Below, in pieces: positions 9,272 to 64,000 of a DNA stretch of 64,000 nucleotides; the first letter of the stretch is position 1; each line of letters starts with the position of its first letter. The DNA is taken from NCBI RefSeq assembly GCF_025949695.1, contig NZ_JAPDFL010000001.1:2235501-2299500 (forward strand). The letters are read 5' to 3'. This DNA comes from Pararhodobacter zhoushanensis. GTDB lineage: Bacteria > Pseudomonadota > Alphaproteobacteria > Rhodobacterales > Rhodobacteraceae. The position numbers and the translations under genes were made by a program. The notes beneath the pieces were generated by a model, which ran no database searches, had not been told where the DNA came from, and worked only from the letters and a program-made list of their open reading frames with translations.

Positions 9272-10765
<1,494 letters not shown>

Positions 10766-10867
10766 GGCCCTGGCCCTCGCGCGGCGGGGCTTGAAGGCGC
10801 CGCCGGGCTGAGGCAGGCTTGCGGCGGGCGGTAAGCCGCCCGCAATCCCCAGACCCGGAGACCGCCG

Positions 10868-11170
10868 ATGCAGCGCCAGCACCCGCACCTCGAGGATGAC
10901 GAGGACCCCGGTTTCGAGCCCGGCACCCGCGAGCTGATCCCGCGGATCCTGTGGATCGTGGTGATCACCCTGATGATCAGCGGCGCGCAGTCCGTGCTGC
11001 TGGCTGTGGCGGTGCTACAGGTGGTGATCATGATCGCCAACCGCGGGCGCCCGAACGAGGAGCTGGGCGATTTCGGCTCGATGGTCGGCGCCTGGGTCGC
11101 GAAAGCGGCGCGCTATCAGTCGGCGGCGAGCGATCAGAAACCCTGGCCCTGGACACCGATGGGATCGTGA
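10868..11170 (+). CDS. DUF4389 membrane protein
   Basis: A 100-residue protein with two closely spaced hydrophobic segments (ILWIVVITLMISGAQSVLLAVAVLQVVIMI) followed by the family-typical NRGRPNEELGDFGSMVGAWVAKAARYQSAASDQKPWPWTPM. This C-terminal pattern, small gene size and the PWPWTP ending are what is seen in DUF4389 proteins. Their function is unknown. GGAGACCGCCG precedes the ATG. It is convergent with trpE across repeat copy 1. Confidence 0.82.
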   Translation: MQRQHPHLEDDEDPGFEPGTRELIPRILWIVVITLMISGAQSVLLAVAVLQVVIMIANRGRPNEELGDFGSMVGAWVAKAARYQSAASDQKPWPWTPMGS

Positions 11171-11233
11171 GGGGAGCGCGGCGCTCGGGGGCATCGAGCC
11201 CCTCGCGCCGCATGGGCTGCCGCCCAAACCTGC

Positions 11234-11392
11234 TTCAAGGGGGACGCACGCGCCCCCTTGAAAATCCCCCCGTGGATACTTTCAGACAGAAAATGAAACA
11301 GGGTTAACGAACCCTTATCATCTGTCCTTAAATATCCTGGGGGGTGAATGCGGCGAATGCCGCAGAGGGGGGCAAGGCCCCCTTGCCCGGTC
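11234..11392 (+). repeat. Double-hairpin intergenic repeat, copy 1 (both halves)
   Basis: A perfect 10-bp hairpin (11234-11243 with 11253-11262) leads into the core GTGGATACTTTCAGACAG...AAAATG at 11271-11294. An inverted spacer follows (AGGGTTAACGAACCCT), then an inverted second half-core (CTGTCCTTAAATATCC, ending near 11338), a GCGGC...GCCGC stem and a GGGGGGCAAGGCCCCC hairpin. It lies between the convergent DUF4389 and trpE genes and probably ends both transcripts. The same unit recurs five more times in this window. Confidence 0.8.
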
Positions 11393-11440
11393 GCCCGAGG
11401 GCGCGGCGGCGACAGCCGTCTCGGCCAAGGGCGAAACCCC

Positions 11441-49017: not shown

Positions 49018-52000
49018 TTAGAGCAGTTTCTGTTCATCGGGGCGTTTGTCCCCGGCCAGCACCTTGCCCAACAGCCAGCGCAACCGGTCCTTGAGCCCTT
49101 CAAGAACCGAAAACACCGAGGGCACGAACAGCAGCGACAGCGCGGTGGACAGCAACAGCCCGCCGATCACCGCGACAGCCATCGGCGCGCGGAACTCGCC
49201 GCCCGTGGCGCTGCCCAGTGCCGAGGGCACCATGCCTGCCGCCATGGCAATGGTCGTCATCACGATGGGACGCGCCCGCTTGTGGCCTGCGTCGATCATC
49301 GCGGCGGCGCGGTCCTTGCCTTCGGCCACGCTGGTCAACGCGAATTCGACCAGCATGATCGCGTTCTTGGTAACGATCCCCATCAGCATCAGGAAGCCGA
49401 TCACCACCGACAGACCGATGCCCGAGCCATAGATATACAGCGCAAAGATCGCGCCGCCGATGGCCAGAGGCAGCGACAGCATGATGGTCAGCGGCGTGAC
49501 GAAGCTGTTGAACAGCAAGACCAGCACCACATAGACCAGCATCAGCCCGGCCCCCATCGCCAGCGCAAAGCTGGAGAAGATCTCGTTCATGGTTTCCACA
49601 TCGCCCGAGGCCTGCAGCTCGGCCCCGTCGGGCATGTTGCTGGCTGCGGGCAGCGCGCTGATCGCCTCTGACGCCGGTCCCAGATAGACACCGGGCGCAA
49701 GGTCGGCCTGGATCGTGACGCGGTAGCGGCGGTCATACCGCTCGATGATGCTGACACCTGACGCCAGCTGCACATCCGCCACAGCCGACAGCGGCACCAT
49801 GGTGCCCGAGCTTGACGGGATGCGGAACCCGGCCAGCCGCGAGATGTCGCTGCGCGCGGCTTCGTTCAGGCGTACGCGGATCGGGATGCGTTCCTCGCCG
49901 GCGTCGAACTGCGCCAGATTGGCGTCGATGTCGCCAATCGTCGCCACCCGGACGGCCGCGGCCAGCGTCGATGCCGTCACACCCATTTCCGCCGCCCGTT
50001 CGGGGTTGGGCGTGATCTGGATCTCGGGCCGGCGAAGCGCGGCCTCGGACGAGACGCCGCGCAGCTCGGGCAGGCTGCGCATTTCGTGCAGCAGGTCGGC
50101 GGCGGCCTGCGCCACAGCGGTCTGGGTATCGGCCAGCACGTTGATCGAAATGTCGCGCTGCCCTTCTTCGCCCAGCACAAAGACGCGCAGGTCGGGCAGA
50201 TCGGCGAGATGGGCCGCGATATCGCTGTTGACCTCGGTCCACGAGCGCTCGCGCTCGGATTTGTCGCCGTAGTTGACCTGCAGGCTGAGCGAGGTTGCCG
50301 ACGAGCCGTTGACGAAGACGCGCTGAACCTCAGGCACTTGGAAAACCCGTTCGCTGACCGCCTGCGCGGTGCGGCGGGCTTCGGGCAGGGTGGTGCCCGG
50401 CGGCAGCTCGACCGTGATGACCGAGCGGCCGGTATCCGAGGGCGGCACAAATTCCTGCGGCAGCAGGGTCGCGGAATAGATCGACCCGGCAAAGAGCAGC
50501 AGGCCAAACAGCAAGGTGACCGTGCGGTTGCGCAGCGTCCAGCGCAGGACGCGCATATAGGCGCGCATGATGAAGCCGTCCTTGACCTCGTGCACGACGG
50601 TTTTGCTCTTCATGAAATAAGCCGCAAAAAGCGGGGTGATCAGCCGCGCCACGGCGAGTGAGAACAGCACCGCCACTGCCACCGTCAGCCCGAACTGCTT
50701 GAAGAACTCGCCCGCGATTCCGCCCATGAAACTGACCGGCGCGAAGACCGCCACGATGGTCAGCGAGATCGCGACCACGGTCGTGCCGATCTCGGTTGCC
50801 GCTTCGATGGCGGCATCATAGGCGGATTTGCCCATGTGGATGTGCCGGTCGATGTTCTCGATCTCGACGATGGCGTCATCGACAAGGATGCCGACCACCA
50901 GCGTGATCCCCAGCAGGCTGATGGTGTTGAGCGAAAAGCCCAGCAGATCCATGACGATAAACGTCGGAATGGCTGACAGCGGCAGCGCCACGAAGGCCAC
51001 CACCGTCGCGCGCCAGTTGCGCAGGAACAGGAACACCACGATGATCGCCAGCAGCGCCCCCTCGTAGAGCGTCTCCATCGCGGAATCGAAGTTGGCCTCG
51101 GTGTAGATCGTCGCGTCGTCGATCAGCGAAAACTCGGTGTCGGGGTATTGCGTGCGCAGCTCATCCAGCCGGGCTTCCGCGTTCTCGGCGGCCAGCAGAT
51201 CGCTGGCCCCTGTGGCGCGGTAGACGCCAAAAGCCACCACCGGACGCCCGTTATACAGCGCAAAGCTGCTTGCCTCGGACGCGCCATCGGTGACGGTGCC
51301 CAGCTGGTTCAGCGGTACGGTCTGGCCGGTGGGCAGCCGGATCGGCGTTGCCGCCAGTTGTTCCAGCGTCGGGGCCGACCCCAGCGCGCGGATCACGTAT
51401 TCCGAACCGAATAGATCGCCCTGACCGCCGCCCTGATCCAGATTGGTCTGCGCCAGTTGCTGACTGATGGAACTGGCGCTGAGGTTCAGCGCCACCAGCC
51501 GGTCAGGGTCCAGATCGACGCGGATCTCACGCTCGGCCCCGCCCAGACGCGTGACACTGCCAACGCCTGCGGCCCCCTGCAAGGCGCGGGCCACGACGTC
51601 ATCGACAAAGCTCGACAGCTCTTCGATGCTGCGCGTCTGATCGGCGACGGCGAAGGTCAGGATCGGACGCCCGGTGAAATCCAGCCGCTGCACCACCGGA
51701 TCGCTGGTGGTGTCGGGCATCTGGTCGCGGGCCGAGGTGACGGCATCCTTGACATCGTTCAGGGCGCGGTCGGTGTTGGTGCCCATCTCGAACTGGATCA
51801 CCAGCTCGGCCACGCCGTCGCGGGCGGTGGCCTCGATATGGCGCAGCCCGGCGATGTCGCTGACCTCATCCTCGATCGGCTGGATCACCTGACTGGCGAT
51901 CTCCGAGGGGGCCGTGCCCGGTGCCGCCACGCCAACGGTGATGACCGGCAAATCGACGTTGGGCATCTCGGTGACCGGCAGGCGGCCAAAGCTGACCAGA

Positions 52001-52074
52001 CCGGCGATGCACAGCACGACAAACAGCGCGATCGGCGGCACGGGCTGCCGGATCGACCATGTGGAAAGGTTCAT
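49018..52074 (-). CDS. RND-family efflux permease (HAE-type)
   Basis: Proton-driven inner-membrane pump of 1018 residues, starting MNLSTWSIRQPVPPIALFVVLCIAGLVSFGRLPVTEMPNVDLPVI. Twelve hydrophobic segments in two halves with large periplasmic loops. The TM4 relay motif GILVDDAIVEIENI (Asp-Asp near residue 400) and the PVSFMGGIAGEFFKQFG and GIVTKNAIMLVEFA segments are typical of AcrB/MexB-like proteins. Its ATG overlaps the stop of the adaptor gene (ATGA). Substrate range unknown; the divergent regulator suggests induced efflux. Confidence 0.94.
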   Translation of the reverse strand: MNLSTWSIRQPVPPIALFVVLCIAGLVSFGRLPVTEMPNVDLPVITVGVAAPGTAPSEIASQVIQPIEDEVSDIAGLRHIEATARDGVAELVIQFEMGTNTDRALNDVKDAVTSARDQMPDTTSDPVVQRLDFTGRPILTFAVADQTRSIEELSSFVDDVVARALQGAAGVGSVTRLGGAEREIRVDLDPDRLVALNLSASSISQQLAQTNLDQGGGQGDLFGSEYVIRALGSAPTLEQLAATPIRLPTGQTVPLNQLGTVTDGASEASSFALYNGRPVVAFGVYRATGASDLLAAENAEARLDELRTQYPDTEFSLIDDATIYTEANFDSAMETLYEGALLAIIVVFLFLRNWRATVVAFVALPLSAIPTFIVMDLLGFSLNTISLLGITLVVGILVDDAIVEIENIDRHIHMGKSAYDAAIEAATEIGTTVVAISLTIVAVFAPVSFMGGIAGEFFKQFGLTVAVAVLFSLAVARLITPLFAAYFMKSKTVVHEVKDGFIMRAYMRVLRWTLRNRTVTLLFGLLLFAGSIYSATLLPQEFVPPSDTGRSVITVELPPGTTLPEARRTAQAVSERVFQVPEVQRVFVNGSSATSLSLQVNYGDKSERERSWTEVNSDIAAHLADLPDLRVFVLGEEGQRDISINVLADTQTAVAQAAADLLHEMRSLPELRGVSSEAALRRPEIQITPNPERAAEMGVTASTLAAAVRVATIGDIDANLAQFDAGEERIPIRVRLNEAARSDISRLAGFRIPSSSGTMVPLSAVADVQLASGVSIIERYDRRYRVTIQADLAPGVYLGPASEAISALPAASNMPDGAELQASGDVETMNEIFSSFALAMGAGLMLVYVVLVLLFNSFVTPLTIMLSLPLAIGGAIFALYIYGSGIGLSVVIGFLMLMGIVTKNAIMLVEFALTSVAEGKDRAAAMIDAGHKRARPIVMTTIAMAAGMVPSALGSATGGEFRAPMAVAVIGGLLLSTALSLLFVPSVFSVLEGLKDRLRWLLGKVLAGDKRPDEQKLL

Positions 52075-53252
52075 TCTGCGGCCCCTTCACGCACCGGGCG
52101 GATCACGTCGCCGTCGCCAAAAAACGCCCCGGCCCGCGCGACAACCTCGTCGCCCTCGACCAGCCCGTCCGTGACCTCTTGCCAACCATCCCACGCGATG
52201 CCGGTCTGGATCATCCTGCGCTCGAGCGTGTCATTGGCCCCAAGACGCAGCACGAAACTGCCCTCCACATCGCGCAAAACCGAGGCGACAGGCACTGCAA
52301 GCCCGGTGCGGTCAGCCACCACGATGCGCCCGCCGACGTACAGGCCGGGACGCAGGCCGGTCGTGTCATCCAGCGAAAGGCGCACCTCGCCCAAGCGGGT
52401 GGTCGGGCTGACCACCGGGGCGATCAGGCGAACATGGCCCGTAACCGGTGCCAGCCCGGCAATGTTCAGGGTCGCGGGATCGTCAGGGTGCAAAAGCACC
52501 AGCTCGGTCTCGATCACTTCGGCGGCGACCTCGACCACACCCTCCTCGATCAACCGATAGATCGGCTCGCCGCCGGTTGCGGCAATCGCGCCGATCTGGC
52601 CGTTGCGGTCAGAAACGATGCCCGCCACGGGCGCGGTGATTTCGGCGTTCTCGAAATCCAGCTGCGCCACTTCCAGCGACGCCTGCGCCTGTTGCAGCGC
52701 GGCCCCCGCAGCCTGCACACCGTCGCGCGCCGACTGCGCATTGGCCTGTGCGCTCAGCTGCGCGGCCAGTGACTCATCCAGTGCCGATTGCGTTGCGGTC
52801 CCGCTCGAGCGCAGGGCGCGCGCGCGCTCGAGCACCTGATTGGCTTGCTGAAGCTGCGCTTCGCTGGCGTTGACCTGGCTTCGGGCCTGATCTTGTGCCG
52901 CAACGGCATTGGCCAGCGCCGCCTCGGCCTGACGGACGCGCAGGGCCAACGTTCGGTTGTCTATGCGCGCCAACACTTCACCAGCGTCGACATGATCGCC
53001 GATATCGGCATTCAGTTCGGTGATGGCGTAGCCGCCGGCGTGCGGCGAGACCAGCACTTCGCTGCGGGCGATCAAGGAACCCGACACCGGCACCACCTGT
53101 TGCAAGGGGCGCACCGCGGCCGTGGCGACGGTTACCGATGGTGCCGGGCGCGGCTCGACCGATGCCTCTTGCGCAAACAGGGGCAGGGGCAGGATCAGCA
53201 AACCCAAAGCGGCCACAGCCGTCCGGATAAGAGAGGAAGGGGCAGCGTGCAT
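52071..53252 (-). CDS. RND efflux periplasmic adaptor (HlyD/MFP)
   Basis: Membrane-fusion protein of 393 residues, starting at the ATG at 53252 (MHAAPSSLIRTAVAALGLLILPLPLFAQ, signal peptide). It shows the lipoyl-type half motif (GDHVDAGEVLARIDNRTLALRVRQAEAAL), a long coiled coil (residues ~90-160, QDQARSQVNASEAQLQQANQVLERAR) and the second lipoyl half (ITAPVAGIVSDRNGQIG). GGAGATCCGG precedes the start. No outer-membrane factor gene is adjacent. Confidence 0.92.
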   Translation of the reverse strand: MHAAPSSLIRTAVAALGLLILPLPLFAQEASVEPRPAPSVTVATAAVRPLQQVVPVSGSLIARSEVLVSPHAGGYAITELNADIGDHVDAGEVLARIDNRTLALRVRQAEAALANAVAAQDQARSQVNASEAQLQQANQVLERARALRSSGTATQSALDESLAAQLSAQANAQSARDGVQAAGAALQQAQASLEVAQLDFENAEITAPVAGIVSDRNGQIGAIAATGGEPIYRLIEEGVVEVAAEVIETELVLLHPDDPATLNIAGLAPVTGHVRLIAPVVSPTTRLGEVRLSLDDTTGLRPGLYVGGRIVVADRTGLAVPVASVLRDVEGSFVLRLGANDTLERRMIQTGIAWDGWQEVTDGLVEGDEVVARAGAFFGDGDVIRPVREGAAE

Positions 53253-53291
53253 CCGGATCTCCGTCAATGGGGCCGAGCGGCACCAGAAATT

Positions 53292-53309
53292 GTTCAATTT
53301 TAACTGAAC
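53292..53309. promoter_or_regulatory. Operator 1 of the RND/GbsR-like divergent promoter
   Basis: GTTCAATTTTAACTGAAC is an 18-bp near-palindrome (GTTCAnTTnnAAnTGAAC), located 40 bases upstream of the adaptor start. Confidence 0.65.
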
Positions 53310-53344
53310 GCAGGTAGGGGTGCCCGACCCCTGCGTCAAGGAGC

Positions 53345-53362
53345 GTTCAGTCTTGAATGACC
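53345..53362. promoter_or_regulatory. Operator 2 of the RND/GbsR-like divergent promoter
   Basis: GTTCAGTCTTGAATGACC matches operator 1's symmetric consensus with three mismatches; the two centres are 53 bases (about five helical turns) apart, between the adaptor and the regulator genes. Confidence 0.55.
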
Positions 53363-53391
53363 TTTGGTGGCGTTTAAGATAGCAAGGGTTC

Positions 53392-53862
53392 ATGGAAGAT
53401 ACGATGACAACACAGATTTTGACCACACGCGCCAATTTTATCGACTTTATGGGCCATGCTCTTGAAGGCAATGGCATGCCGCCGATTGCCGGGCGTATTC
53501 TGGGTCTGCTGATCTTTGACGGCGAACCGCGCTCGTTCAGCGATCTGGCGACCGAACTGGGGGTCAGCCGGGGCAGCATCAGTGCCAATGCACGCGCGCT
53601 GGTTCAGCGGGGATCGATCATCAAGGTGAACATGCCCGGCGACCGGCAGGATTATTTCCGGCTGGCTGACGAGTCGTTCTGTGTGCTCTTGCAAACCATC
53701 GCGACCCGCATGCGCAGCACGTCACGCGCCGTGCAGGGCTTTGCCAGCGAATTGCCAGACGACGCCACGCCGCACAAGCGGCTCGACGGGTTGGCGGTGT
53801 TCTTCACGGCGATGGCCGACGGCATCGAAAACGCCGCCAAGACGATCGACCAGCGCTGCTAG
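53392..53862 (+). CDS. GbsR/MarR-type transcriptional regulator
   Basis: A 156-residue winged-helix protein: NFIDFMGHALEGNGMPPIAGRILGLLIFDGEPRSFSDLATELGVSRGSISANARALVQRGSIIKV is the DNA-binding part with the GMPPIAGRI opening typical of the GbsR-like branch of MarR proteins, and a helical C-terminus follows. It is divergent from the RND operon across two related palindromes, so it probably represses the pump and itself. An alternative ATG lies at 53404. Confidence 0.87.
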   Translation: MEDTMTTQILTTRANFIDFMGHALEGNGMPPIAGRILGLLIFDGEPRSFSDLATELGVSRGSISANARALVQRGSIIKVNMPGDRQDYFRLADESFCVLLQTIATRMRSTSRAVQGFASELPDDATPHKRLDGLAVFFTAMADGIENAAKTIDQRC

Positions 53863-53877
53863 GCAGCGCCATCCACG

Positions 53878-55164
53878 TCAGCTGTCGACCGGCGCGGTGC
53901 TCTTGACGCGGGCACCCGGTGGGATCGTCGGCGGGGCCGCGTTCAGGTTCTCGATGGCAAACCCCGCGGCGGCTTTGTAGCCGGCCATGAAGCTCGTGCG
54001 CTCGTCGGGCGAGATCACCGTATCGATATCATCGAACGCACCGCCGCAGCGTTCATCCACCATATTCAGCAACCCAAACGGCCCGGCCCCGCGGTTGCGC
54101 AGGATCACGGCCGAGATCGGCCCGCAGAGCTGCTGATCGAAGGTGGCAAGCGCGTGTGTGGTCAGGCCGTTTGCAACCATGCACGCGCCCAGAATGCGCG
54201 CGTCCACAATGGCTTGACTGGCGCCGTTCGAGCCGGTGGGATACATCGCATGCGCCGCGTCGCCGATCAGCAACACGTTGCCATCGCGCCAGGTTTCCAC
54301 CGGATCACGGTCAATCATCGGGTTCTCATAGGCGATGGTGCCCGCCCGGATCAGCGCCGGAACGTCGAGCCAGTCATAGGTCCAGCCGTCGAAATGATGG
54401 GCGAAATCCTCGATCGCGACTTCACGGAACCAGCCGGTATTCTCGCGCGCCGACGGGTCGTCATAGGTGACCTCGGCGATCCAGTTGATATCGGCCATGC
54501 CGTCGGCGTCGGGATGTGAAATCGGATAGATCACCATCCGGTGCTTGTGCGTGCCCAGTCCGACAAAACTGCTGCCCGTGCGGATCGGTTTGGCCCGTGT
54601 CACCCCGCGCCACATCACAGCGCCGCCCCAGTGGATTGGCGGCTGATCGGGGTGCATCTGCGCGCGGATGGCGGAATGGATGCCGTCCGCGCCAATCAGG
54701 AACGCCCCGGTTTCCTCGCGCCCATCGTCGAACAGGGCGGTCACGCTGTCGTCGGCGTTCTGGCGGTAGCCGGTCACCCGGCGACCCAGTTGCACCGCGT
54801 CGGCGCCCAGCCGGTCGCAGACCGTCTGGTAAAGCAGCATGTGCAGCGCGCCGCGATGCGCAGCGTATTGCGGCCAGTTGTAGCCCGCCAGTTCACCGCG
54901 CGGTTCGGCATAGATGTCGTTGCCATTCAGCCCGACCAGCGCCCATTCGCGCGCCGGGACGCCGACGGGATCGAGAACCTCAGGCCCGAAGCCCAGATCA
55001 TACAGTTCGCGCACGGCGTTGGGCTGCAGGTTGATGCCCACGCCCAGCGGCTTGAGCGCGCGCACGGATTCGAAGACCACGCAGTCGACGCCGATCTGAT
55101 GCAGCGTCAACGCTGTGACCAGACCGCCGATACCGCCCCCGGCAATCATCACCCTTTGCGTCAT
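53878..55164 (-). CDS. PhzS-like FAD-dependent monooxygenase A
   Basis: Flavoprotein hydroxylase of 428 residues. GxGxxG FAD site at MIAGGGIGGLVTAL, the DG motif GADGIHSAIRAQMHPDQPPIHWGG, and the GD motif GDAAHAMYPTGSNGASQA are all present. The regions LGVGINLQPNAVRELYDLGFGPEV, NWPQYAAHRGALHMLL and MWRGVTRAKPIRTGS are typical of the PhzS group of aromatic/heteroaromatic ring hydroxylases. Last gene of the 10-kb operon, 96 bases after its paralogue. Start chosen at ATG 55164 (GGGGGATACAGGG upstream). Confidence 0.88.
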   Translation of the reverse strand: MTQRVMIAGGGIGGLVTALTLHQIGVDCVVFESVRALKPLGVGINLQPNAVRELYDLGFGPEVLDPVGVPAREWALVGLNGNDIYAEPRGELAGYNWPQYAAHRGALHMLLYQTVCDRLGADAVQLGRRVTGYRQNADDSVTALFDDGREETGAFLIGADGIHSAIRAQMHPDQPPIHWGGAVMWRGVTRAKPIRTGSSFVGLGTHKHRMVIYPISHPDADGMADINWIAEVTYDDPSARENTGWFREVAIEDFAHHFDGWTYDWLDVPALIRAGTIAYENPMIDRDPVETWRDGNVLLIGDAAHAMYPTGSNGASQAIVDARILGACMVANGLTTHALATFDQQLCGPISAVILRNRGAGPFGLLNMVDERCGGAFDDIDTVISPDERTSFMAGYKAAAGFAIENLNAAPPTIPPGARVKSTAPVDS

Positions 55165-55260
55165 CCCTGTATCCCCCTGAATGATCCGCGCGCGTTTTCG
55201 CAAGAAAACGCCGCCGGAGCAACAGGGGGCGCGCGGCTTTTGGCGGCGGTGCAGGTTTGC

Positions 55261-56526
55261 TCAGGCAATCGAGGCCCGGGCACCGGGCGCGATGATCGGC
55301 GGTGTCTTGTTCAACTGGTCAGCCGCAAACCCGGTGATGGCAACGAAGCGCGCCAGATACCGCGCGCGTTCGGCACGGGGGCAGACCTCTTCGATATCGT
55401 CAAAGGACCCGCCGCAACGGGCGTCGATGATGCTGAACAGCTCGAAAGGCCCCTCGGCGCGGTTGCTTTCCACCACCGCTGAAATCGGCGCACACAGCTT
55501 GTCATCATAGACATCGAGCGCCCATTCCGAGAGCCCATGCTCAACGATGCTGGCACCAAGAACACGGGCGTCGATGATCCCTTGGCTTGCACTGTTGGCG
55601 CCGGTGGGAAACATCGGATGCGCAGCGGCGCCCAGCAGCACGACGCGGCCATCGCGCCAGGTGGGGACCGGATCGCGGTCCCGCATCGGCGTTTCGAAGG
55701 CGACGTCGGCGGTGCGGATCAACGTGCCGGCGTCAAGCCAATCCGTGCAGAAATTTTCGAAGTGTTTCGCAATATCAACGGGTTGTGCGGGGTTAAATAA
55801 GGCTCCGTCGGGGCGCACCGTTTGCGCGCCACGTGCCAGATGCGCGATCCAGCAGATCTTGGCCAACCCGTCCGGGCCCGGATGCGAGAAGGGAAAGAAG
55901 ACGAACCGCCTGTCTTTCGTGCCGACCGCTATCGCGCTTGAGCCTGTGCGGATCGGACGCGAGCGCGTCACGCCCCGCCAGAGCACCCCTTTGGACCGGT
56001 TGATGGGGGGCTGATCAGGGTACATCTGGGCGCGCACGCACGAGTTTATCCCGTCAGCCGCCACCAGGATCGCGCCCCTTTCTTCGCTGCCGTCAGCGAA
56101 CAGTGCCGTCACGCTGTCGCGATCCTGCCGGTAGCCTGTGATGCGCGCGCCCAGAACCACGCAATGCCTGCCAAGGCGCTGCATCGCGGTTCTGTAGAGC
56201 ATCGCATGAAACAGGCCGCGATCGACCGAGAATTGCGGCCAGTGAAACCCGGCATCGATGCCGCGCTGTTCACTGCTGATGTCCTTGCCATTCAGGCTGA
56301 CCATGGCCCATTCCCTGAGCGGCAAGCCGACCGAATTCAGCTGCGCCCCGGCGATACCCAGATCGTAAAGCTCTCTCACCGCATAGGGCTGCAGGTTGAT
56401 TCCAACGCCTGCGCGCTGCAATTCGGGCGCCGCATCGTACACGGTGCAGGCGACCCCGATCTGGCGCAGCGTCAGGGCCGTGACCAGCCCAGCGATCCCG
56501 GCCCCTGAAATAATGACCCGCGTCAT
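55261..56526 (-). CDS. PhzS-like FAD-dependent monooxygenase B
   Basis: Paralogue of the next gene, 421 residues, with the FAD motif IISGAGIAGLVTAL, DG motif AADGINSCVRAQMYPDQPPINRSKG, and MWRGVT-equivalent LWRGVTRSRPIRTGS. The GD motif that binds the FAD ribityl/pyrophosphate reads GAAAHPMFPTGANSASQG: the usual Asp is Ala. Either a functional change or a decaying copy. It lies 28 bases after the first P450. Confidence 0.85.
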   Translation of the reverse strand: MTRVIISGAGIAGLVTALTLRQIGVACTVYDAAPELQRAGVGINLQPYAVRELYDLGIAGAQLNSVGLPLREWAMVSLNGKDISSEQRGIDAGFHWPQFSVDRGLFHAMLYRTAMQRLGRHCVVLGARITGYRQDRDSVTALFADGSEERGAILVAADGINSCVRAQMYPDQPPINRSKGVLWRGVTRSRPIRTGSSAIAVGTKDRRFVFFPFSHPGPDGLAKICWIAHLARGAQTVRPDGALFNPAQPVDIAKHFENFCTDWLDAGTLIRTADVAFETPMRDRDPVPTWRDGRVVLLGAAAHPMFPTGANSASQGIIDARVLGASIVEHGLSEWALDVYDDKLCAPISAVVESNRAEGPFELFSIIDARCGGSFDDIEEVCPRAERARYLARFVAITGFAADQLNKTPPIIAPGARASIA

Positions 56527-56554
56527 GCTCCCTCCGGTCTGTGGTGACCGCAGG

Positions 56555-57736
56555 TTATCCGGCAGGTGTCAACGCAAGGTGAACGGCAAGGGGTCCATAT
56601 TCCGGCCAGCGGGTCATTTCCAGCGGGCCGGTCAGGCGCAGATCGCGGGTTTTTTGCGCGATTTGCAACAACACCTCGGCCAGCAGCACCCGCGCCAGCG
56701 GCGAGCCGGGGCACATATGCGGGCCACGGCCAAAAGTGACCAGATCGGGCGCGTCCCGGTCCAGCCGGTAGCTGTGCGGATCGGGGAAGACATCCTCGTC
56801 CCGGTTGCCCGAAGTGAAGACCACGGCCAGCGGATCGCCCTCTTTGACCAGCTTGCCGCCCAGTTCCACATCGCGCGTCGCGGTACGGGCAAAGCCGCGG
56901 TACGGGGTATAGAGGCGCAGCAGTTCTTCCAGCGCCACCGGCACCAGCGCCGGGTTTGCGGTCAGTTCGGCGTGGTGTTCTGGGTGGCGCGCAAGGTGCA
57001 CGGCCATCGAGCCGATAAAGGTCGTCGGCGCGATGATGCCGACCAGCAGGAATTGCCGCAGCGCGCCAAGGATCTTGTCATCGGGCAGTGCCGCGCCGTC
57101 GACCCGAACCGCCAGCAGGTTTGACACCGGGTCCAGATCGGGGTCTTGCGGGCTGGCTTTGCGGTCCTCGATCAGCCGCGCGGCGATGTTGTAAAGTGCG
57201 TCCGAGCGTTCGCGCAGCAGGTCGAAATCCTGCCGTTGCAGCGCCATGTTGAACTCGGCCCCGACAATGCGGATCTCAGCCGCTTCATCGGGCGCAAGGC
57301 GGAAGAATTCGGCCAGCAGCGCGATGGGCAGGGTGAAGGAAAAATCGGCGCAGATATCGCCACCCCCGGCTGCGACGAACGGGTCGAAATGCTCGGCCAC
57401 CATCGCGGCGATCACCGGCTTCCAGTCCTCGATCCGCCGGGGACTGAGAAAGCGCAGAATGGCGTTGCGGTACGGGATGTTACCCGGCGGGTCCAGATGC
57501 AGCGGCGGGCGGCGCTGCGTGGTGGCGACGCGGGGCACGACGTTCTGCACAGTCGTTGTAAAGGTCTGCCATTCGGTCAGCACGCGGCAGATATCGGCGT
57601 GTTTGGTCACCGCCCAGAAGCCCCCCATTTCATCGGCCCAGGCGACCGGGCAATGCCCGCGCAGTTCGGCGAACAGGGCGTGCGGGCTGTCGAAATCCTC
57701 GACCTCGGGGACGGTGAAATCGGCGGGATGAGTCAT
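56555..57736 (-). CDS. Cytochrome P450 A, atypical I-helix
   Basis: A 393-residue P450. Haem-ligand loop FGRGPHMCPGSPLAR with Cys342, and ExxR as Glu271-Arg274 (EELLR). The I-helix segment that normally reads A/G-G-x-D/E-T-T is VGIIAPTT (232-239); aligned on the following RHP, the acid-alcohol pair is replaced by Ile-Ala. The helix-C His after DPP is Asn86 (DPPGN). No ferredoxin gene is adjacent. Its ATG overlaps the stop of P450 B (ATGA). Confidence 0.88.
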   Translation of the reverse strand: MTHPADFTVPEVEDFDSPHALFAELRGHCPVAWADEMGGFWAVTKHADICRVLTEWQTFTTTVQNVVPRVATTQRRPPLHLDPPGNIPYRNAILRFLSPRRIEDWKPVIAAMVAEHFDPFVAAGGGDICADFSFTLPIALLAEFFRLAPDEAAEIRIVGAEFNMALQRQDFDLLRERSDALYNIAARLIEDRKASPQDPDLDPVSNLLAVRVDGAALPDDKILGALRQFLLVGIIAPTTFIGSMAVHLARHPEHHAELTANPALVPVALEELLRLYTPYRGFARTATRDVELGGKLVKEGDPLAVVFTSGNRDEDVFPDPHSYRLDRDAPDLVTFGRGPHMCPGSPLARVLLAEVLLQIAQKTRDLRLTGPLEMTRWPEYGPLAVHLALTPAG

Positions 57737-58905
57737 GATGCGAACCTCAGATCCAGATGGGTGACGCCGTATTCCGTCCAGCGCGCCCAGCGGGTGTTGT
57801 CGCCCAAGGTAAAGGCGGGCAGGGCGGCCAACACGTCGAGCGTGATACGCGCCTGCAGCTTGGCGACGGCCTGACCCAGGCAGATGTGCGGGCCGATGCC
57901 GAAGGCGAGGTGACGATTGGGGCTGCGGTCGGCGATGAAGTCCATCGGTGCGTCGAAGACGTCGGGGTCGCGGTTGGCGCTGAGGTAGTTCAGCGCCACG
58001 GGGCAGCCCTGCGGGATGGTGACGCCGCGCAGCTCAGTGTCCTCGGTCGCCACGCGCACCAAGGCCTGATTGGGCGCGTAGCAGCGCAGCATTTCCTCGA
58101 TCAACAGGCGGCGGTCGGCGGTGCCGTCGCGCAGGCGGGCTTGCAGATCAGCGTCCCGCGCCAGATGCCACGCCATCGAGCACAGGAAGTTGCGCGGTAC
58201 GACATGCCCGCCGATCAGCATCAGCCGGACCATGCCGGCGAGTTCCTCGAAGCTGTAGGGCCCGCCCTCGGGCGCAAAGGCCATCAACCCGCTGACGATA
58301 TCGGTTTCGGGGTCACGCGGTTTGGCAACCCGGTCTTTGACCAGCGCAATGGCGAACCCGTCGATGGCCTGACTGATCTTGCCCGCTTGAGGCATGTCGA
58401 GGCCCTGCACGGCGGCGACATAATCGTGGCCCAAGCGCCCCAGTTCCTCGGCCTCGTTCAGATCCATGCCCGCCAGAATGCACAGACTGCCCACGGTGAA
58501 GGGCGCAGCGAAGCCGGTGCCGAACTCGGGGGCCTCGGCGGCTCGCAGTGTCTCGGCCAGCTGCTCGGCCAGCGCCCGCGTCGGGGCCTCGATCGCGCGG
58601 ATGCGGTTTTCCTTGAAGAACAGGTTCAGCCCCTTGCGATAGCGCATCGCCTCGGGCGGGTCTTTCTGCAACGGCAGGCGGGGCAGGCCCTTGCGCGGGC
58701 TAGCCGGGATCACCGTCTGCACGGTCGCGGTAAAGCGCGCATAGTCTTTGGATGCCATGACCACATCGTCATATTTGGTCAGCGTATAGAACCCGCCCCA
58801 GTTCTGCGATCCGGCCACCGGGCAACGCCCGCGCAGATCGAGCAGCGCGGCTTGCGGATCGGCCTGCACGTCGGCCGAGGTCGGGTCCCAGTCATGCGGG
58901 ATCAT
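57733..58905 (-). CDS. Cytochrome P450 B, atypical I-helix
   Basis: A 390-residue P450 that starts MIPHDWDPTSADVQADPQAALLDLRGRCPVAGSQ at 58905, overlapping the dctM stop (ATGA). Haem loop FGIGPHICLGQAVAK with Cys342, ExxR as Glu271-Arg274 (EEMLR). The I-helix reads IGGHVVPRN (231-239), again without the usual acidic-Thr pair, and the helix-C His is Ala86 (DPPEA). Its motifs align colinearly with P450 A, so the two are related duplicates. A hydroxylase acting on the operon's transported substrate is likely, but electron source and substrate are unknown. Confidence 0.88.
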   Translation of the reverse strand: MIPHDWDPTSADVQADPQAALLDLRGRCPVAGSQNWGGFYTLTKYDDVVMASKDYARFTATVQTVIPASPRKGLPRLPLQKDPPEAMRYRKGLNLFFKENRIRAIEAPTRALAEQLAETLRAAEAPEFGTGFAAPFTVGSLCILAGMDLNEAEELGRLGHDYVAAVQGLDMPQAGKISQAIDGFAIALVKDRVAKPRDPETDIVSGLMAFAPEGGPYSFEELAGMVRLMLIGGHVVPRNFLCSMAWHLARDADLQARLRDGTADRRLLIEEMLRCYAPNQALVRVATEDTELRGVTIPQGCPVALNYLSANRDPDVFDAPMDFIADRSPNRHLAFGIGPHICLGQAVAKLQARITLDVLAALPAFTLGDNTRWARWTEYGVTHLDLRFAS

Positions 58906-60182
58906 CGGGCGAACACCGTCGTCGGCAGCCATAGCGATATCTCCGGTATGTAGGTCACAAGAAGCAGGAACACGGCCATCGCGGCGATGAAGGGCAGAAC
59001 ACCGCGGATCGCCTCGCTGAGCGGGGCTTTGGCGATGGACGAGAGCACGAACAGGTTCAGACCAATCGGCGGCGTGAGGAACGCGATCTCCATGTTCACG
59101 ATCAGGATGATGCCGAAATGGATCGGGTCGATGCCAAGGGCGGGCAGCAGCGGCAGCACGATGGGGGTGACGATCAGCAACACCGCCACAGCATCGAGGA
59201 ACATGCCCATGATCAGCATGATCAGGTTGAGTGCGATGAGGAATTGCCACGGCGACAGGCCGGTTGCGGCGGCCCAGCGCACCAGCGCCGTGGGGATGCC
59301 GCTGCCGGTGATCCAATGCGCGAAGAGCATGGCAAACATGACGATGAAGGTCACGGCAGAGGCGGCTTTCATCGCCTCGGCGGTCATGCCGAAAATGTCG
59401 CGCCACGTCACCTCGCGGTAGACCAGCACGGCGATCAGGACCGAGGCAATCGCGGCAACCCCGGCGGATTCGGTGACGGTGGTGATGCCCGTATAGATGC
59501 CGACAAAGACCGAGATCGGGATGAACAGCGCGGGCAGGGCGCGCAGGTTGCGGCGCAGGAACTCGGCCCCCGACACGCGGGTGCCCGAGGCATAGCCTTT
59601 CTTGCGCGAGATGATCATCACCACGACCGCAAGGATCACCGCCTGAATGAGGCCCGGGATCACCCCGGCCAGGAACAGGCGCGGCACCGAGACCTCGGCG
59701 ATCAGGCCATAGAGGATCATCGACAGCGACGGCGGGATCAGGATGCCCAGCGTGCCCGAGGCGCCGACAGTGCCCAGCGCGAAGGGGCGGTCATAACCGC
59801 GCGCCATCATCGCCGGGATCAGGAAGGTGCCCATCGCCATTGCGGTCACCACGGACGAGCCGCTGATTGCCGCGAACAGCGTCGTCGCCAGCACGCAGAC
59901 CAGCCCCAGCCCGCCACGGAAATGGCCGACCCAGGCTTCTGCGGCGTCGATGATGATGCGCGCGATGCCGCCGCGCTGCATGAAGGTGGCGGCCATGACG
60001 AAGAACGGCACGGCCAGGAAGGTTGTCGAGTTGATGCCCGAGATCGAGGTCATCGCCGCGTCCATCAGCGGACGCCCCTCGAACGACAGCATGACCAGCG
60101 CCGAGACACCCAATGCCACGAAGATCGGCGCGCCCAGTGCCATCAGCACCAGCAACCCGCCCAGACCAAGGATCGCTTCCAT
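58902..60182 (-). CDS. TRAP transporter large permease (DctM type), system 3
   Basis: A 426-residue permease with DctM motifs: TLFAAISGSSVVTAMAMGTFLIPAMMARGY, VGASGTLGILIPPSLSMILYG, and LTPPIGLNLFVLSSIAKAPLSEAIRG. The start at 60182 overlaps the last base of the small-subunit gene's stop. Unlike system 2 it is intact. Confidence 0.94.
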   Translation of the reverse strand: MEAILGLGGLLVLMALGAPIFVALGVSALVMLSFEGRPLMDAAMTSISGINSTTFLAVPFFVMAATFMQRGGIARIIIDAAEAWVGHFRGGLGLVCVLATTLFAAISGSSVVTAMAMGTFLIPAMMARGYDRPFALGTVGASGTLGILIPPSLSMILYGLIAEVSVPRLFLAGVIPGLIQAVILAVVVMIISRKKGYASGTRVSGAEFLRRNLRALPALFIPISVFVGIYTGITTVTESAGVAAIASVLIAVLVYREVTWRDIFGMTAEAMKAASAVTFIVMFAMLFAHWITGSGIPTALVRWAAATGLSPWQFLIALNLIMLIMGMFLDAVAVLLIVTPIVLPLLPALGIDPIHFGIILIVNMEIAFLTPPIGLNLFVLSSIAKAPLSEAIRGVLPFIAAMAVFLLLVTYIPEISLWLPTTVFAR

Positions 60183-60697
60183 TATTCGACCTTTCCGGGC
60201 AGCGCTTCAGCCGCAGTGGTGATCCCGCGTCCGACAATCGCCAGCAGAACGATGCGCAGGGCCATCAGACCCATGCCGACAGGCAGCGCCAGAAACAGTG
60301 TCCATGCTTGTGGTGTCCGCAGACTGGATGCCGAGCGGTCATCGAGCATTTTCGAGAATTCAAAGGCTTCCCAGCCAAACCAGAACATCGCGGCGCAGAA
60401 CGCCAGTGTCAGCGCGCCGGTGAACAGCACCGCCGCGCGGCGCAGATGCGGGGGCAGGCCGGTCACCAGAATTTCGGTGTTGATGTGACGGCCTTCGGCC
60501 GCCAGCACGCTGCCCCCCAGCGCGGTGGCCCAGACGATGAAATAGAGCGCAACTTCGTCGGCCCAATCGACCGCATGCTGCGGGGCCAGAACCCGCAGCG
60601 CGGCGCCGCCCATGAAGGTGAACAGCGCACACAGCACCAGCGTGCCGATCAGCACGGTTTCGATCCGTGACCAGATCGAGAGTAATCGCTCAAGCAT
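60182..60697 (-). CDS. TRAP transporter small permease (DctQ type), system 3
   Basis: A 171-residue protein with four hydrophobic segments: VLIGTLVLCALFTFMGGAALRVLAPQHAVDWADEVALYFIVWATALGGSVLAAEGRHINTEIL is recognisable DctQ sequence. It lies 54 bases after dctP. Confidence 0.86.
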   Translation of the reverse strand: MLERLLSIWSRIETVLIGTLVLCALFTFMGGAALRVLAPQHAVDWADEVALYFIVWATALGGSVLAAEGRHINTEILVTGLPPHLRRAAVLFTGALTLAFCAAMFWFGWEAFEFSKMLDDRSASSLRTPQAWTLFLALPVGMGLMALRIVLLAIVGRGITTAAEALPGKVE

Positions 60698-60751
60698 CTC
60701 AGACTCCGCGGGGAAGGGTGGTCAGGCGGGATAGCCCGCCTGACCGTCGTG

Positions 60752-61759
60752 TCACTGGCTGTGCAACGCTGCCGCGACGCGACCAACGAAATCGGCGTCC
60801 ATGCCCGAGGCTTCGACGATGCCGGGCTGAAGATCCATCATCTGCGCGCGCATCGCGCCGATCATCTCGTCGGACGGATCGGCGTAGGTGATGCCGTTTT
60901 CCTCATTCGTGGCGCGGGCATGCTCCAGCTCTTCGGCCGAGGCGTCACGCGCCCAGCCGACGACCTGCGCCCAGGCCTGATTGATCACGCCGCGCTGTTC
61001 TTCGGTCATGGCGTCCAGCGTGCGGGCCGATGCCAGCGGGATATAGACCCCCCAACCCGCGTTATCGTTGAAGGCGTGGCGAATGCCTGCCTCCCACAGA
61101 CGCCCGCCCGAGATGGTCAGATCGGTGACCGAGCCCAGCCCCTGAATCTGGCCCTGCGTCAGTTGCAGCACGATCTCGGTGCGCGGGGTGGCCACGCCGT
61201 TGATGCCCATCGCGCTCATGATCTGCACCACGACCGGGCTGGGCGGGGTGGCGACGGTGCGGCCTGCAAGCTCTTCGTAGCTGGCCGCAGGTTCGGTGGT
61301 GTAGGCGGTGTTGTTGGGGGCGAATTCGAAATGCCCGCCCTCAGGCACCACGATGCCGCGCTGGGCGACCATGCCCCACAGCTCGGCCCCCAGCGGGCCG
61401 TCCAGCACCGCGCGGATGTCATCGCGGGTGGCGCCAAAGAACATCGGCAGGGTGATCACGCTCAGGTTCGGCTCAAGCCGGCTCAGCGTCGGGCTGGCCT
61501 GAATCGACAGATCCAGCGCGCCCGAAGCCAGCGCCCGGATCGCATCGGCCGAGTTATAGAGCTGACCGGCCGGGAACACCTCGACGGTGATGTCGCCGCC
61601 CGACAGCTCGGCAATCGCCGCCGCCCACTGCTCGGCGGCCTGATTGCGCACATGGCCCGGCGGGGTTTCCACCGACAGCCGCAACTCAAGCGCCTGCGCG
61701 CCCGAGGCGATCATCAGTGCGGCGGCCAGAGCGCCGCTCAGGTTGAAAAGCTTAGACAT
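60752..61759 (-). CDS. TRAP transporter substrate-binding protein (DctP type), system 3
   Basis: Periplasmic receptor of 335 residues (signal peptide MSKLFNLSGALAAALMIASGAQA). In the segment where DctP proteins usually carry GxKxR for carboxylate binding, this one reads ELAGRTVATPPSPVVVQIMSAMG (163-185), with no Arg at the usual place; Arg167 is two to three positions earlier. The cargo may therefore bind differently from a simple carboxylate. It is 36 bases after the CoA-transferase gene. Confidence 0.92.
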   Translation of the reverse strand: MSKLFNLSGALAAALMIASGAQALELRLSVETPPGHVRNQAAEQWAAAIAELSGGDITVEVFPAGQLYNSADAIRALASGALDLSIQASPTLSRLEPNLSVITLPMFFGATRDDIRAVLDGPLGAELWGMVAQRGIVVPEGGHFEFAPNNTAYTTEPAASYEELAGRTVATPPSPVVVQIMSAMGINGVATPRTEIVLQLTQGQIQGLGSVTDLTISGGRLWEAGIRHAFNDNAGWGVYIPLASARTLDAMTEEQRGVINQAWAQVVGWARDASAEELEHARATNEENGITYADPSDEMIGAMRAQMMDLQPGIVEASGMDADFVGRVAAALHSQ

Positions 61760-61795
61760 GGTGAATCCTCCTCCCAGTGGATTGCGATGATGGCG

Positions 61796-62920
61796 TCAGC
61801 CTGCCCCCAGAACGGGGGCAGGCCGGTCGGTGCCCGGTCCGCCCTCGCGGAACCGGAACCCGGCGTTCAGAACGCGCTGCGTACCGCCGGTCGGCGCAGG
61901 CAGCGACAGGAACAGATCGCGCTGGGCGAGATGCGGCATGGCCACGGCCTGGCCCACATCCTGCACCCGCGCGGCGGGAACACCGACAGCCCGCAACGCA
62001 TCCTCCCAGTGCGCTGCGGGCTGGGTCGCCAGCGCCGCCGCCAGCGTCGCGGCAAGCGCGTCGGCATGGGCGGCACGGGCGGTCCGGGTGGCATAGGCGG
62101 GATCGTCCAGCAGATCGTCCAGCCCCAGCACGGCAAGCAGCTTGGCGACATGCCAGTCCTCGACCGCGCCGATGGTGATCTCGCCGTCGGCGCAGGTGAA
62201 GGTATCCGAAGTCGGCGCACGGCTGAAGCCGCGGTTGCCGGTGCGCAGAGGTTCCTCGCCGGTCATCAGCAGCGGGTTGACCACCGACAGCAGCATGACC
62301 AGCGCCGCATCCAGCATTGCCACGTCAATCTCTTGCCCGGTCACCAGCCCGCGTTCGCGCTGCAACAGCGCCGTCTGGATGGCGAAGGCGGCAAGCAGCC
62401 CGGTGAAGGTATCGACCAGCGGAAAGCCGATGCGCTGCGCGGGATCGCCGGGCAGGCCGCTGAGCTGCATGACGCCCGACAGGCTCTGGATGATCTGATC
62501 CATCGCCGCGACATCGGCCATCGGCCCAGACTGGCCAAAGCCGGACACCGCGCACCAGATCAGCTGCGGGTATTTCGCCCGCATCTGGGCAGGCCCCAAC
62601 CCCAGACGGGCCATCACGCCGGGGCGGAAATTCTCGACCACCACATCGCTTTGCGCGATGATCGCTTCGGCCTGCGCGCGACCTTCTTCGGTCTTGAGAT
62701 CCAGCACGACCGAGCTTTTGCCAATATTGATACCGGCAAAGGCCGGGGCCATGCCGCGCTGCGCCGGGTCCAGCGTGTAGTTGCGCAGGGCATCACCGCG
62801 CGGCGGCTCGATCTTGACCACCTCGGCACCGTTCAGGGCCAGAAAATGCGTCGCCAGCGGACCGGCCACGACATGGCTGAAGTCGGCGACCCTGATTCCG
62901 GTCAACGCACGCTGTGCCAT
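61796..62920 (-). CDS. CaiB/BaiF-family (class III) CoA-transferase
   Basis: A 374-residue transferase; start MAQRALTGIRVADFSHVVAGPLATHFLALNGAEVVKIEPP at 62920 with GGGAGG upstream. IGFPLVDTFTG carries the catalytic Asp170 that forms the glutamyl/aspartyl-CoA thioester intermediate in this family. DLKTEEGRAQAEAI and SDVVVENFRPGVMARLG are typical. Beside a 2-hydroxyacyl-CoA dehydratase-type protein it could activate a 2-hydroxy acid to its CoA ester, as HadA does. Confidence 0.93.
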   Translation of the reverse strand: MAQRALTGIRVADFSHVVAGPLATHFLALNGAEVVKIEPPRGDALRNYTLDPAQRGMAPAFAGINIGKSSVVLDLKTEEGRAQAEAIIAQSDVVVENFRPGVMARLGLGPAQMRAKYPQLIWCAVSGFGQSGPMADVAAMDQIIQSLSGVMQLSGLPGDPAQRIGFPLVDTFTGLLAAFAIQTALLQRERGLVTGQEIDVAMLDAALVMLLSVVNPLLMTGEEPLRTGNRGFSRAPTSDTFTCADGEITIGAVEDWHVAKLLAVLGLDDLLDDPAYATRTARAAHADALAATLAAALATQPAAHWEDALRAVGVPAARVQDVGQAVAMPHLAQRDLFLSLPAPTGGTQRVLNAGFRFREGGPGTDRPAPVLGAG

Positions 62921-62937
62921 GAGTGGCCCTCCCTTGT

Positions 62938-62954
62938 AGTTCATAGAATGAACT
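62938..62954. promoter_or_regulatory. Short perfect inverted repeat before the CoA-transferase gene
   Basis: AGTTCAT and ATGAACT (7 bp each) flank AGA in the 47-base space between the dehydratase-type gene and the CoA-transferase gene. It could be a regulator site or an internal promoter operator. Confidence 0.4.
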
Positions 62955-62967
62955 AATCATGAGTCTG

Positions 62968-64000
62968 TCAACGCTCTTTTCGCCCCCGCGCGATCCCGTC
63001 CCGCACCAGCGCCCGCGCTTTCTCGCCATCCCACGCCCGCGCATCGACCATATCGGCCTCGATTGTCACGGTTTCGACCCCGGCCTGCTCCAGCGCCCGG
63101 GCAATGAACCGCGTGCCATAGCCCGAGGGGCGGTCGCTTTCCGGCACGATGATCACCGCCAGATCAATCCGTGCGCGCAGCGCTTCCTTGACGTGCCAGG
63201 CACCGGCCCAGGGCGGCTGGTGCAGGTGTTCGTTCAGGTCGATGGCCCGAGCGGCCAGCGCGCGCATCGGATCACCATGATCGGTGCGCAGATAGCCGTC
63301 AGCCGCAAAGGGCAGGTACATCGACCACGCGAACACGGCACCGAGGTTTTCAAACGCCTGATAGAATCCAGTGTCGAACCACAGGCCTGCGCCAATCCAC
63401 ATCATGCGCACCTGCTCGTCCTCAACCACCGCCGCGCCGTCGGCGATGCGCGCAGCCACCGCGTCGCGGAACCGCTCGGCATGCGCCAGCGCCCAGTCGC
63501 TGCCGCGGTGCCATTGCGGGATCATCACGTTGGGGATCATTTCCGAAATGCGGATCGGGCAGCGCGGGGCGTCGGCGATCATCTGTGCGGCCTCGTCGAA
63601 CAGGCGTTCCTGCCTGTCGATCCGCGCCATCAACCCCGCCAGTGCGCCGTCCGGCATGCGCCGCCCGGCGACCTTCTCGGCCAGAGCGGTGAGATCCTCG
63701 ATCTCGGCCACCATCAGGTCCAGCCGGTCGCCGCCGGTACCCTTTTCCCACCCGTCACGCAAGCCGTTCCACCAGTCGGATGCCGGATCAGGATGCCCCG
63801 GCGCGCTGAGAATGCGCAGCGGCGCGCCGGTCAGGCGCGCCCATTCGGCAAAGATCAGCGGATGGTCATCGGCACTGGCGCGCGCGCACAACAAACCCGG
63901 AGCGGGCAGGCCACCCCACGGTTGCATCTCGGGCCGGCCATCGATCGCTGCAAAGAGCGGCAGCGCCGAGTATTTGGCCAGCCGCCCGTGAAACCCGGCG
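62968..64000 (-). CDS. 2-hydroxyacyl-CoA dehydratase / benzoyl-CoA reductase-family subunit (partial, 5' end outside)
   Basis: The minus-strand frame is open from the stop at 62968 to the window end, so the N-terminus is missing; the ATG at 63927 is internal. About 344 residues are visible. GRLAKYSALPLFAAIDGRPEMQPWGG, CARASADDHPLIFAEWARLTG, FYQAFENLGAVFAWSMYLPFAADGYLR and RIDLAVIIVPESDRPSGYG resemble the HgdB/HadC/BcrC group, which holds a [4Fe-4S] cluster and eliminates water from 2-hydroxyacyl-CoA radically. Only two cysteines are in the visible part, in LLCAR and PRCPI. Its ATPase activator is not in the window. Confidence 0.72.
   Translation of the reverse strand, partial: AGFHGRLAKYSALPLFAAIDGRPEMQPWGGLPAPGLLCARASADDHPLIFAEWARLTGAPLRILSAPGHPDPASDWWNGLRDGWEKGTGGDRLDLMVAEIEDLTALAEKVAGRRMPDGALAGLMARIDRQERLFDEAAQMIADAPRCPIRISEMIPNVMIPQWHRGSDWALAHAERFRDAVAARIADGAAVVEDEQVRMMWIGAGLWFDTGFYQAFENLGAVFAWSMYLPFAADGYLRTDHGDPMRALAARAIDLNEHLHQPPWAGAWHVKEALRARIDLAVIIVPESDRPSGYGTRFIARALEQAGVETVTIEADMVDARAWDGEKARALVRDGIARGRKER

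Follow-up and report, generated by a model that had tools for sequence, protein, structure and literature searches.

A conserved gene unit pairing a TRAP importer and two P450s with a CoA-transferase and an HGD-D pair lacking the cluster cysteines in Pararhodobacter zhoushanensis

The analysed DNA, a 64-kb stretch (contig positions 2,235,501–2,299,500) of the 4.65-Mb genome of Pararhodobacter zhoushanensis (the window), contains nine closely spaced minus-strand genes at positions 53878–64000. The analysis bore out the nine genes, their order and their tight spacing as described in the original prediction, and the gene families named there agree with the NCBIfam and Pfam scores. The genes encode, in the direction of reading, a subunit of the 2-hydroxyacyl-coenzyme A (CoA) dehydratase family (HGD-D; HGDb), a CaiB-type class III CoA-transferase, the binding protein DctP, the small permease DctQ and the large permease DctM of a tripartite ATP-independent periplasmic (TRAP) importer, two cytochromes P450 (P450_A and P450_B) and two PhzS-like flavin adenine dinucleotide (FAD) monooxygenases (FMO_A and FMO_B). 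HGDa, an HGD-D-type partner gene, lies upstream of HGDb, beyond the window end. The genes from HGDa to P450_B constitute a conserved, probably co-regulated module that is assembled from known families but departs from them in three telling ways. The FMO pair is best seen as neighbouring this core from outside.

The reading favoured here, with a probability of roughly one half, is a MarR-controlled aerobic catabolic unit composed of a peripheral import and oxidation module and a core CoA module. DctPQM, which lacks the carboxylate-binding arginine, would import a hydrophobic or non-carboxylate compound, and the two P450s would oxidise it, a carboxylic acid being the simplest product. The CaiB-type transferase would place CoA on the acid, and HGDa and HGDb (HGDab) would convert the resulting ester in a reaction of the dehydration or lyase type that tolerates oxygen and involves no radical. 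Sister clusters of a second type, whose TRAP protein has the arginine, would start from the acid itself. The earlier proposal of a catabolic pathway for one transported compound survives as a coherent unit of a dedicated importer, a CoA-transferase and P450s, given their same-genome occurrence and shared operator motifs; it is not supported as regards the membership of the FMOs, an oxygen-sensitive enzyme and a single transcript, and the successive hydroxylations are uncertain.

Gene order and conservation of the core

The BzdO/HadB-like HGDb gene (62968–64000) lies, like the other eight of the nine genes, on the minus strand. The window holds the C-terminal 343 of its 419 residues, and the complete gene extends past the window end to window-equivalent position 64227 (10968–12227 in L002, whose positions equal the window position minus 52000). 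CaiB (61796–62920; likely start codon ATG 62920) is separated from HGDb by 47 bases with this start, dctP (60752–61759) from CaiB by 36 bases and dctQ (60182–60697) from dctP by 54 bases. The dctQ gene overlaps dctM (58902–60182) by 1 base. P450_A (57733–58932) overlaps dctM by 4 bases when started at ATG 58905, with ATG 58932 as the alternative, and overlaps P450_B (56555–57736) by another 4 bases. FMO_A (55261–56526) and FMO_B (53878–55164) adjoin after gaps of 28 and 96 bases, respectively. At the other end, HGDa overlaps HGDb by 4 bases, and a MarR-family gene (PF12802, 58.7 bits) diverges from HGDa. DctM scores 410.7 bits against an NCBIfam cut-off of 268, and DctP scores 110.6 against 50 with the TRAP_S1 model. 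Both P450s, CaiB (PF02515, 370.5 bits) and DctQ exceed their Pfam cut-offs, and the P450s and CaiB reach no curated NCBIfam model at its cut-off.

A scan of named genomes yielded 45 loci, in which the closest HGDb relative is that of Pararhodobacter zhoushanensis L029 (96%). The order HGDa-HGDb-CaiB-dctP-dctQ-dctM-P450_A-P450_B (type 1) is kept in 11 of these loci (L029, L030, L031, L032, L033, L041, L045, L049, L050, L052 and L064), whose hosts are Pararhodobacter, a strain named Rhodobacter sp. NTK016B, Maritimibacter, Mesobacterium, an Ahrensia metagenome-assembled genome (MAG) and a Rhodobacteraceae MAG. The gene order first noted in one genome thus recurs, as an eight-gene core, beyond chance. 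Certain bacteria of marine and soil habitats share the gene set. In a further arrangement (type 2; families assigned by scoring individual members of L036), the cluster consists of a divergent CaiB gene, usually a MarR gene, HGDa, HGDb, three consecutive CaiB-family genes and unrelated dctPQM genes. Two loci, L040 and L022, mix the two types. More distant clusters in sphingomonads and their relatives keep HGDa, HGDb, CaiB and TRAP genes together and in part hold TonB-receptor-like genes, a PGA_cap-domain protein and an S15 hydrolase (Pfam run on L066 only).

Co-occurrence was assessed in 295 genomes of the family, with at most six or seven candidates scored per genome, so that misses are possible. 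HGDb is found in 13 genomes (E 1e-20 or better), and P450_B and DctP are each found in 8 (both 1e-70 or better). The P450_B and DctP sets are identical (G000, G050, G097, G153, G159, G161, G222 and G229) and lie entirely within the 13 HGDb genomes. The hypergeometric chance of this co-occurrence is ∼1e-12, or 6e-10 when the own genome and its congener are left out, with no correction for relatedness. In the class sample, HGDb is rare (4 of 385 genomes at 1e-60, with at most four candidates scored per genome). The parts are not always adjacent: the TRAP/P450 genes of G161 lie on a different contig from HGDb, and in G097 a distance of ∼72 kb separates dctPQM-P450_A from HGDb, with P450_B on a different contig. 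These separate modules have their own MarR-family gene (assigned by Pfam in G161) and a similar -35 box and operator alongside. Same-genome occurrence and the shared operator motifs indicate that the TRAP/P450 and HGDab parts belong together as a coherent unit. In the HGDb tree, 12 of the 13 linked type-1 rows form one clade (100/99), with L040 outside it, and the genomes with a separate TRAP/P450 module also fall outside, across several HGDb lineages; the pairing thus arose, or was rearranged, on more than one occasion.

Operator-like sites and transcription units

The palindrome GTTCA-N5-TGAAC recurs around these genes across loci. Across 46 loci (this locus and the 45 named ones; 900,725 bases), at least 9 of the 10 motif bases are matched at 68 sites, compared with 4 for the reversed control. 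Fifty-eight of the sites occupy three positions around HGDa and HGDb: 29 upstream of HGDa, 9 further upstream toward the divergent CaiB gene and 20 directly behind HGDb. By locus, 24 have an HGDa-upstream site, 20 have a site behind HGDb and 19 have both. All 12 linked type-1 operons (this genome and the 11 named loci) contain the operator before HGDa, and 7 contain it before CaiB, where it is absent from L041, L045, L049, L050 and L052. It is also found before dctP in three genomes whose dctP module stands apart. In the complete genome, the strict pattern GTTCAYNNNRTRAAC is found three times, twice at this locus. The operator is not significant in the window alone, where it gives 2 matches (one palindrome, both strands) and 24 of 100 shuffles reach 2, so the operator evidence lies in the comparison across loci.

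In the promoters compared, a TTGACA-like box (5 or 6 of 6 bases; 4 of 6 in L064) accompanies these sites. It is located 9–15 bases before the type-1 HGDa operator, 12–13 bases before the type-1 CaiB operator, 13 bases before dctP in L040, L089 and L090, and 2 bases before the type-2 CaiB operator, each box being the best match in ∼30 positions of chosen loci, with no shuffle control. A simple sigma-70 scan returned a single site, fewer than the 1.9 that shuffled sequences gave on average. In the window, the gap between HGDb and CaiB contains a second putative MarR operator (62939–62953, no strand assigned; GTTCATTCTATGAAC in minus-strand reading) and, 12 bases upstream of it, the -35-like box TTGACA (62966–62971, minus strand). 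These two elements make a single transcript doubtful in this genome, which looks like a case of two transcripts, HGDa-HGDb and CaiB onward. A single operon transcript, as originally envisaged, is thereby disfavoured here and is still compatible with the 5 of the 12 linked operons without the second site. The gene set is probably one regulon, here with two promoters, and the MarR protein would act through the putative operators.

The second promoter-like site also bears on an alternative in which all nine genes, including the FMOs, form one transcript for one compound, with hydroxylations by the P450s and FMOs followed by CoA activation and dehydration. Both FMOs exceed the cut-off of 400 for the PhzS-like model NF005720 (574.3 and 448) and are 55% identical to each other, and FMO_B matches the PhzS-like structure 2rgj at 1.8e-76 (PDB 2rgj/3c96). 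The tight spacing, the adjacency of the FMO pair in L029, L030 and L031 as well, the 66% FMO_B relative beside the distant HGDb cluster of L069 and the five linked operons lacking the second operator would fit this alternative, but it is nonetheless unlikely. FMO_B relatives are widespread, in 74 of the 295 family genomes at 1e-120 (own genome included), and for 8 of the 11 linked operons the fetched flank contains no FMO. Among five other genomes in which the surroundings of FMO_B were inspected, four have different neighbours; in the congener G222 (L104), FMO_B adjoins the efflux and regulator block also seen in the window, and other genes fill the 7.7 kb that separate FMO_B from P450_B. The FMOs were rejected as core genes on this distribution and these locations, and their proposed membership of the pathway was not upheld; although PhzS-like, they are not tied to this cluster. 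Co-transcription of the FMOs with the core is possible in this species. The block shared with G222 occupies positions 49018–53862 of the window and consists of genes that by eye encode resistance-nodulation-division (RND) efflux proteins, together with a small divergent MarR_2-family regulator (35.3 bits) beside FMO_B.

Departures from the parent families

The HGD-D superfamily is generally associated with radical enzymes that occur in anaerobes and are sensitive to oxygen. HGDb belongs to this family by score (PF06050, 106.8 bits against a cut-off of 28.4), and its predicted structure keeps the HGD-D fold. HGDa is more divergent: the type-2 protein of L036 scores 29.0 against 28.4 and that of L029 gives no PF06050 match, but an HGDa profile matches BzdN at 6.8e-31. 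The cluster-cysteine columns, which we take to be the [4Fe-4S] ligands, were read from alignments to BzdO, HadB, BzdN and HadC. At these three columns, HGDb of this strain has A84, A119 and D365. All three cysteines are kept in none of 165 HGDb rows, which comprise the 45 loci and 120 partly overlapping proteins (the best 120 of 1215 profile matches at E 1e-10 or better, biased to close relatives). In the named loci, all three are absent from 38 of 45 HGDb sequences, two are kept in 6 and one sequence is gapped at two columns. Among the best 120 of the 1215 matches, cysteine is absent from at least 119 at each column. The third former ligand position is aspartate in 39 of the 45 and 119 of the 120 rows. 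HGDa likewise contains no cysteine in the three columns of 19 sequences, and its first and third former ligand positions are acidic in 17 and 19 of them, respectively. HGDb relatives with two of the three cysteines occur in L065–L069, in clusters that partly include TonB-receptor-like, PGA_cap-type and S15-type hydrolase genes.

An oxygen-sensitive, anaerobic-type enzyme had been placed in the operon by the original prediction; with HGDb lacking the three cluster cysteines, the oxygen paradox dissolves. The radical dehydratase reading was rejected because the cluster cysteines are missing in both HGDa and HGDb. For the same reason, a functional [4Fe-4S] enzyme of the radical dehydratase or benzoyl-CoA reductase type, either shielded from oxygen or used under anoxia, is a very improbable identity for HGDab. 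The only activator-type match in the genome (PF01869, 64.8 bits) may also count against it, since this protein best fits the N-acetylglucosamine kinase model NagK, at 88.3 bits and below the cut-off of 370. A tentative proposal, possible rather than probable, is that HGDab represents a new oxygen-tolerant HGD-D branch whose cluster pocket was rebuilt, with acidic residues at former ligand positions, and would bind a simple metal ion or none. Such a branch would perform non-radical CoA-ester chemistry, coupled to P450s that dispense with the classical proton relay and are driven by peroxide or assisted by the substrate, and the two-cysteine relatives would be intermediates.

HGDb shares the PF06050 family with the benzoyl-CoA reductase subunits BzdNO/MbdON and the 2-hydroxyisocaproyl-CoA dehydratase HadBC. 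Unlike in those systems, the three cluster cysteines of HGDb are replaced, its identity to the large subunits is 14–18% in structural alignments, and the genes sit with P450s and a TRAP importer. If it is real, an HGD-D branch in aerobes without cluster ligands would mean reuse of the scaffold in air, and the name 'benzoyl-CoA reductase subunit B', one of the source names borne by some of the best 120 of the 1215 related proteins, would mislead.

Both P450s (PF00067, 73.0 and 61.6 bits) keep the heme motif FxxGxxxCxG, as FGIGPHICLG and FGRGPHMCPG. Their I-helices, GGHVVPRN in P450_A and VGIIAPTTF in P450_B, lack the acid-alcohol pair, which is replaced by Val-Val and Ile-Ala, respectively. P450_A has Ile-Ala in Maritimibacter and Mesobacterium, and the L065 relative has Val-Ala. 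The pair is absent from all aligned P450_A and P450_B rows except a fused 723-residue P450 of L020/L049 (35%), which keeps the threonine. In L049 (Mesobacterium pallidum; 9421–11592), this gene lies directly after P450_B, and the electron-transfer part fused to its P450 has a Fer2 domain at the end. Nine other P450 genes of the P. zhoushanensis genome, read by eye, comprise five with acid-Thr, one with Glu-Ala-Thr, two with Glu at the Thr position and one unresolved. The best PDB sequence match of P450_B is a CYP125-type P450 (CYP125MRCA, 8vxi; near full-length, E 3.6e-48), which shares the heme motif but has Glu-Thr at the I-helix columns. According to a review (PMC9112060), disruption of the acid-alcohol pair blocks the usual O2 pathway and allows peroxide to form, T252A of CYP101A1 being one example. 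Both P450s may therefore be peroxide-driven or substrate-assisted, and the successive hydroxylations suggested earlier became uncertain.

Loss of these catalytic residues is what would be expected if HGDab and the P450s were catalytically dead and retained as CoA-ester or ligand-binding sensors for the regulon. This is quite unlikely, as other HGDb residues are strongly conserved (84 invariant columns among 49 rows) and the P450 heme cysteine motif is kept.

DctP retains its fold (TM 0.84 to 4p47), together with DctQ and DctM, and shares both fold and gene set with SiaP and 4p47 of the DctP family. Unlike SiaP, type-1 DctP has alanine at the Arg-147 column in 13 of 13 rows; in alignment A3, arginine is found in the five type-2 rows and in L065 and L066, and lysine in L028. 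According to the available portion of PMC4646407, arginine is present in 96.8% of 6142 DctP sequences, Treponema Tp0957 also has alanine, with a hydrophobic pocket and a ligand that is unknown, and the arginine-less Csal_0678 bound ethanolamine. The type-1 cargo is thus probably not a carboxylate and the type-2 cargo probably is one, and this contrast suggests the two-entry model. Substrate guesses from PDB relatives of DctP led nowhere. CaiB resembles, over its full length, class III CoA-transferases such as 4ed9 (E 6e-58), YfdE and the succinyl-CoA:mesaconate transferases, but is below the cut-offs of all matched NCBIfam models, so that none of them assigns a particular acid to it. With the operator motif and a TRAP protein devoid of the arginine, the substrate is within reach of ordinary expression tests and ligand screens.

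Counterevidence, published parallels and neighbouring genes

Several observations weigh against the catabolic unit proposed here. The chemistry known from the HGD-D superfamily depends on the cluster. In this assembly a frameshift interrupts HGDa (12224–13095 in L002; window-equivalent 64224–65095), which has an open frame of 214 codons and the remainder in another frame; in L029 the gene is one open frame. The unit may thus be damaged in this strain; the sequence is compatible with either a sequencing error or a real change. No redox partner is found among the conserved core genes (the rest of the genome was not searched), which, with the missing acid-alcohol pair, leaves normal hydroxylation uncertain. 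The P450_B matches in G050 and G159 are just 51–52% identical, and the two-entry model is blurred by several type-2 clusters (L037, L044, L047, L048, L057 and L022) with a single P450_B relative close by. Twenty-one of the 46 loci (L038, L040, L042–L044, L046, L047, L054, L058–L063 and L065–L071) are without an operator at the three positions, although L040 has one before dctP, and 10 of the 68 sites lie elsewhere. Finally, engineered SiaP R147A still bound sialic acid in crystals and worked at high substrate concentration (PMC4646407, in part), so that alanine does not strictly exclude an acid.

Topic searches of the open literature found no pathway with this gene set among the papers listed, in agreement with the original prediction, and subscription journals may hold one. 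The accessible text of PMC12442348 contains no P450, dehydratase or MarR. The nearest published idea found is the sterol degradation proposed for SAR202 with a CYP125 P450 and CaiB/BaiF transferases (PMC5395668, available text). Common to both is the idea that P450s oxidise recalcitrant compounds before CoA-transferases activate them, and TRAP genes occur in the same genomes. The proposal differs in concerning genome-wide gene families of another phylum, with no gene order and not this gene set in that text, and the paper nowhere uses the word dehydratase.

The neighbourhood bears on a further alternative, in which the unit modifies or detoxifies a bioactive compound (a signal, toxin or xenobiotic) and does not feed central metabolism. 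A MarR-family regulator, ABC- and RND-type export genes nearby (by eye) and a conserved core in which no beta-oxidation or ring-cleavage genes were seen lend it some support. It is nevertheless unlikely, because a dedicated importer, a CoA-transferase and the several CoA-transferases of the sister clusters fit catabolism better. The genes adjoining the MarR gene (13558–17239 in L002) by eye encode an ATP-binding cassette (ABC) exporter and a membrane-fusion-type protein, with like genes in L029 and L064. Further out, the region from 18763 in L002 to 4068 in L003 contains a binding-protein-like gene that no Pfam model matched, transporter genes similar by eye to the tripartite tricarboxylate type, and two Amidohydro_2 genes, and this group is partly seen in L029. 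Beside the type-2 clusters of L037, L048 and L057 (first 7 kb), genes that by eye encode a peptide-type ABC importer adjoin the P450_B relative, and in L048 an operator copy is located at 4807 beside these importer-like genes.

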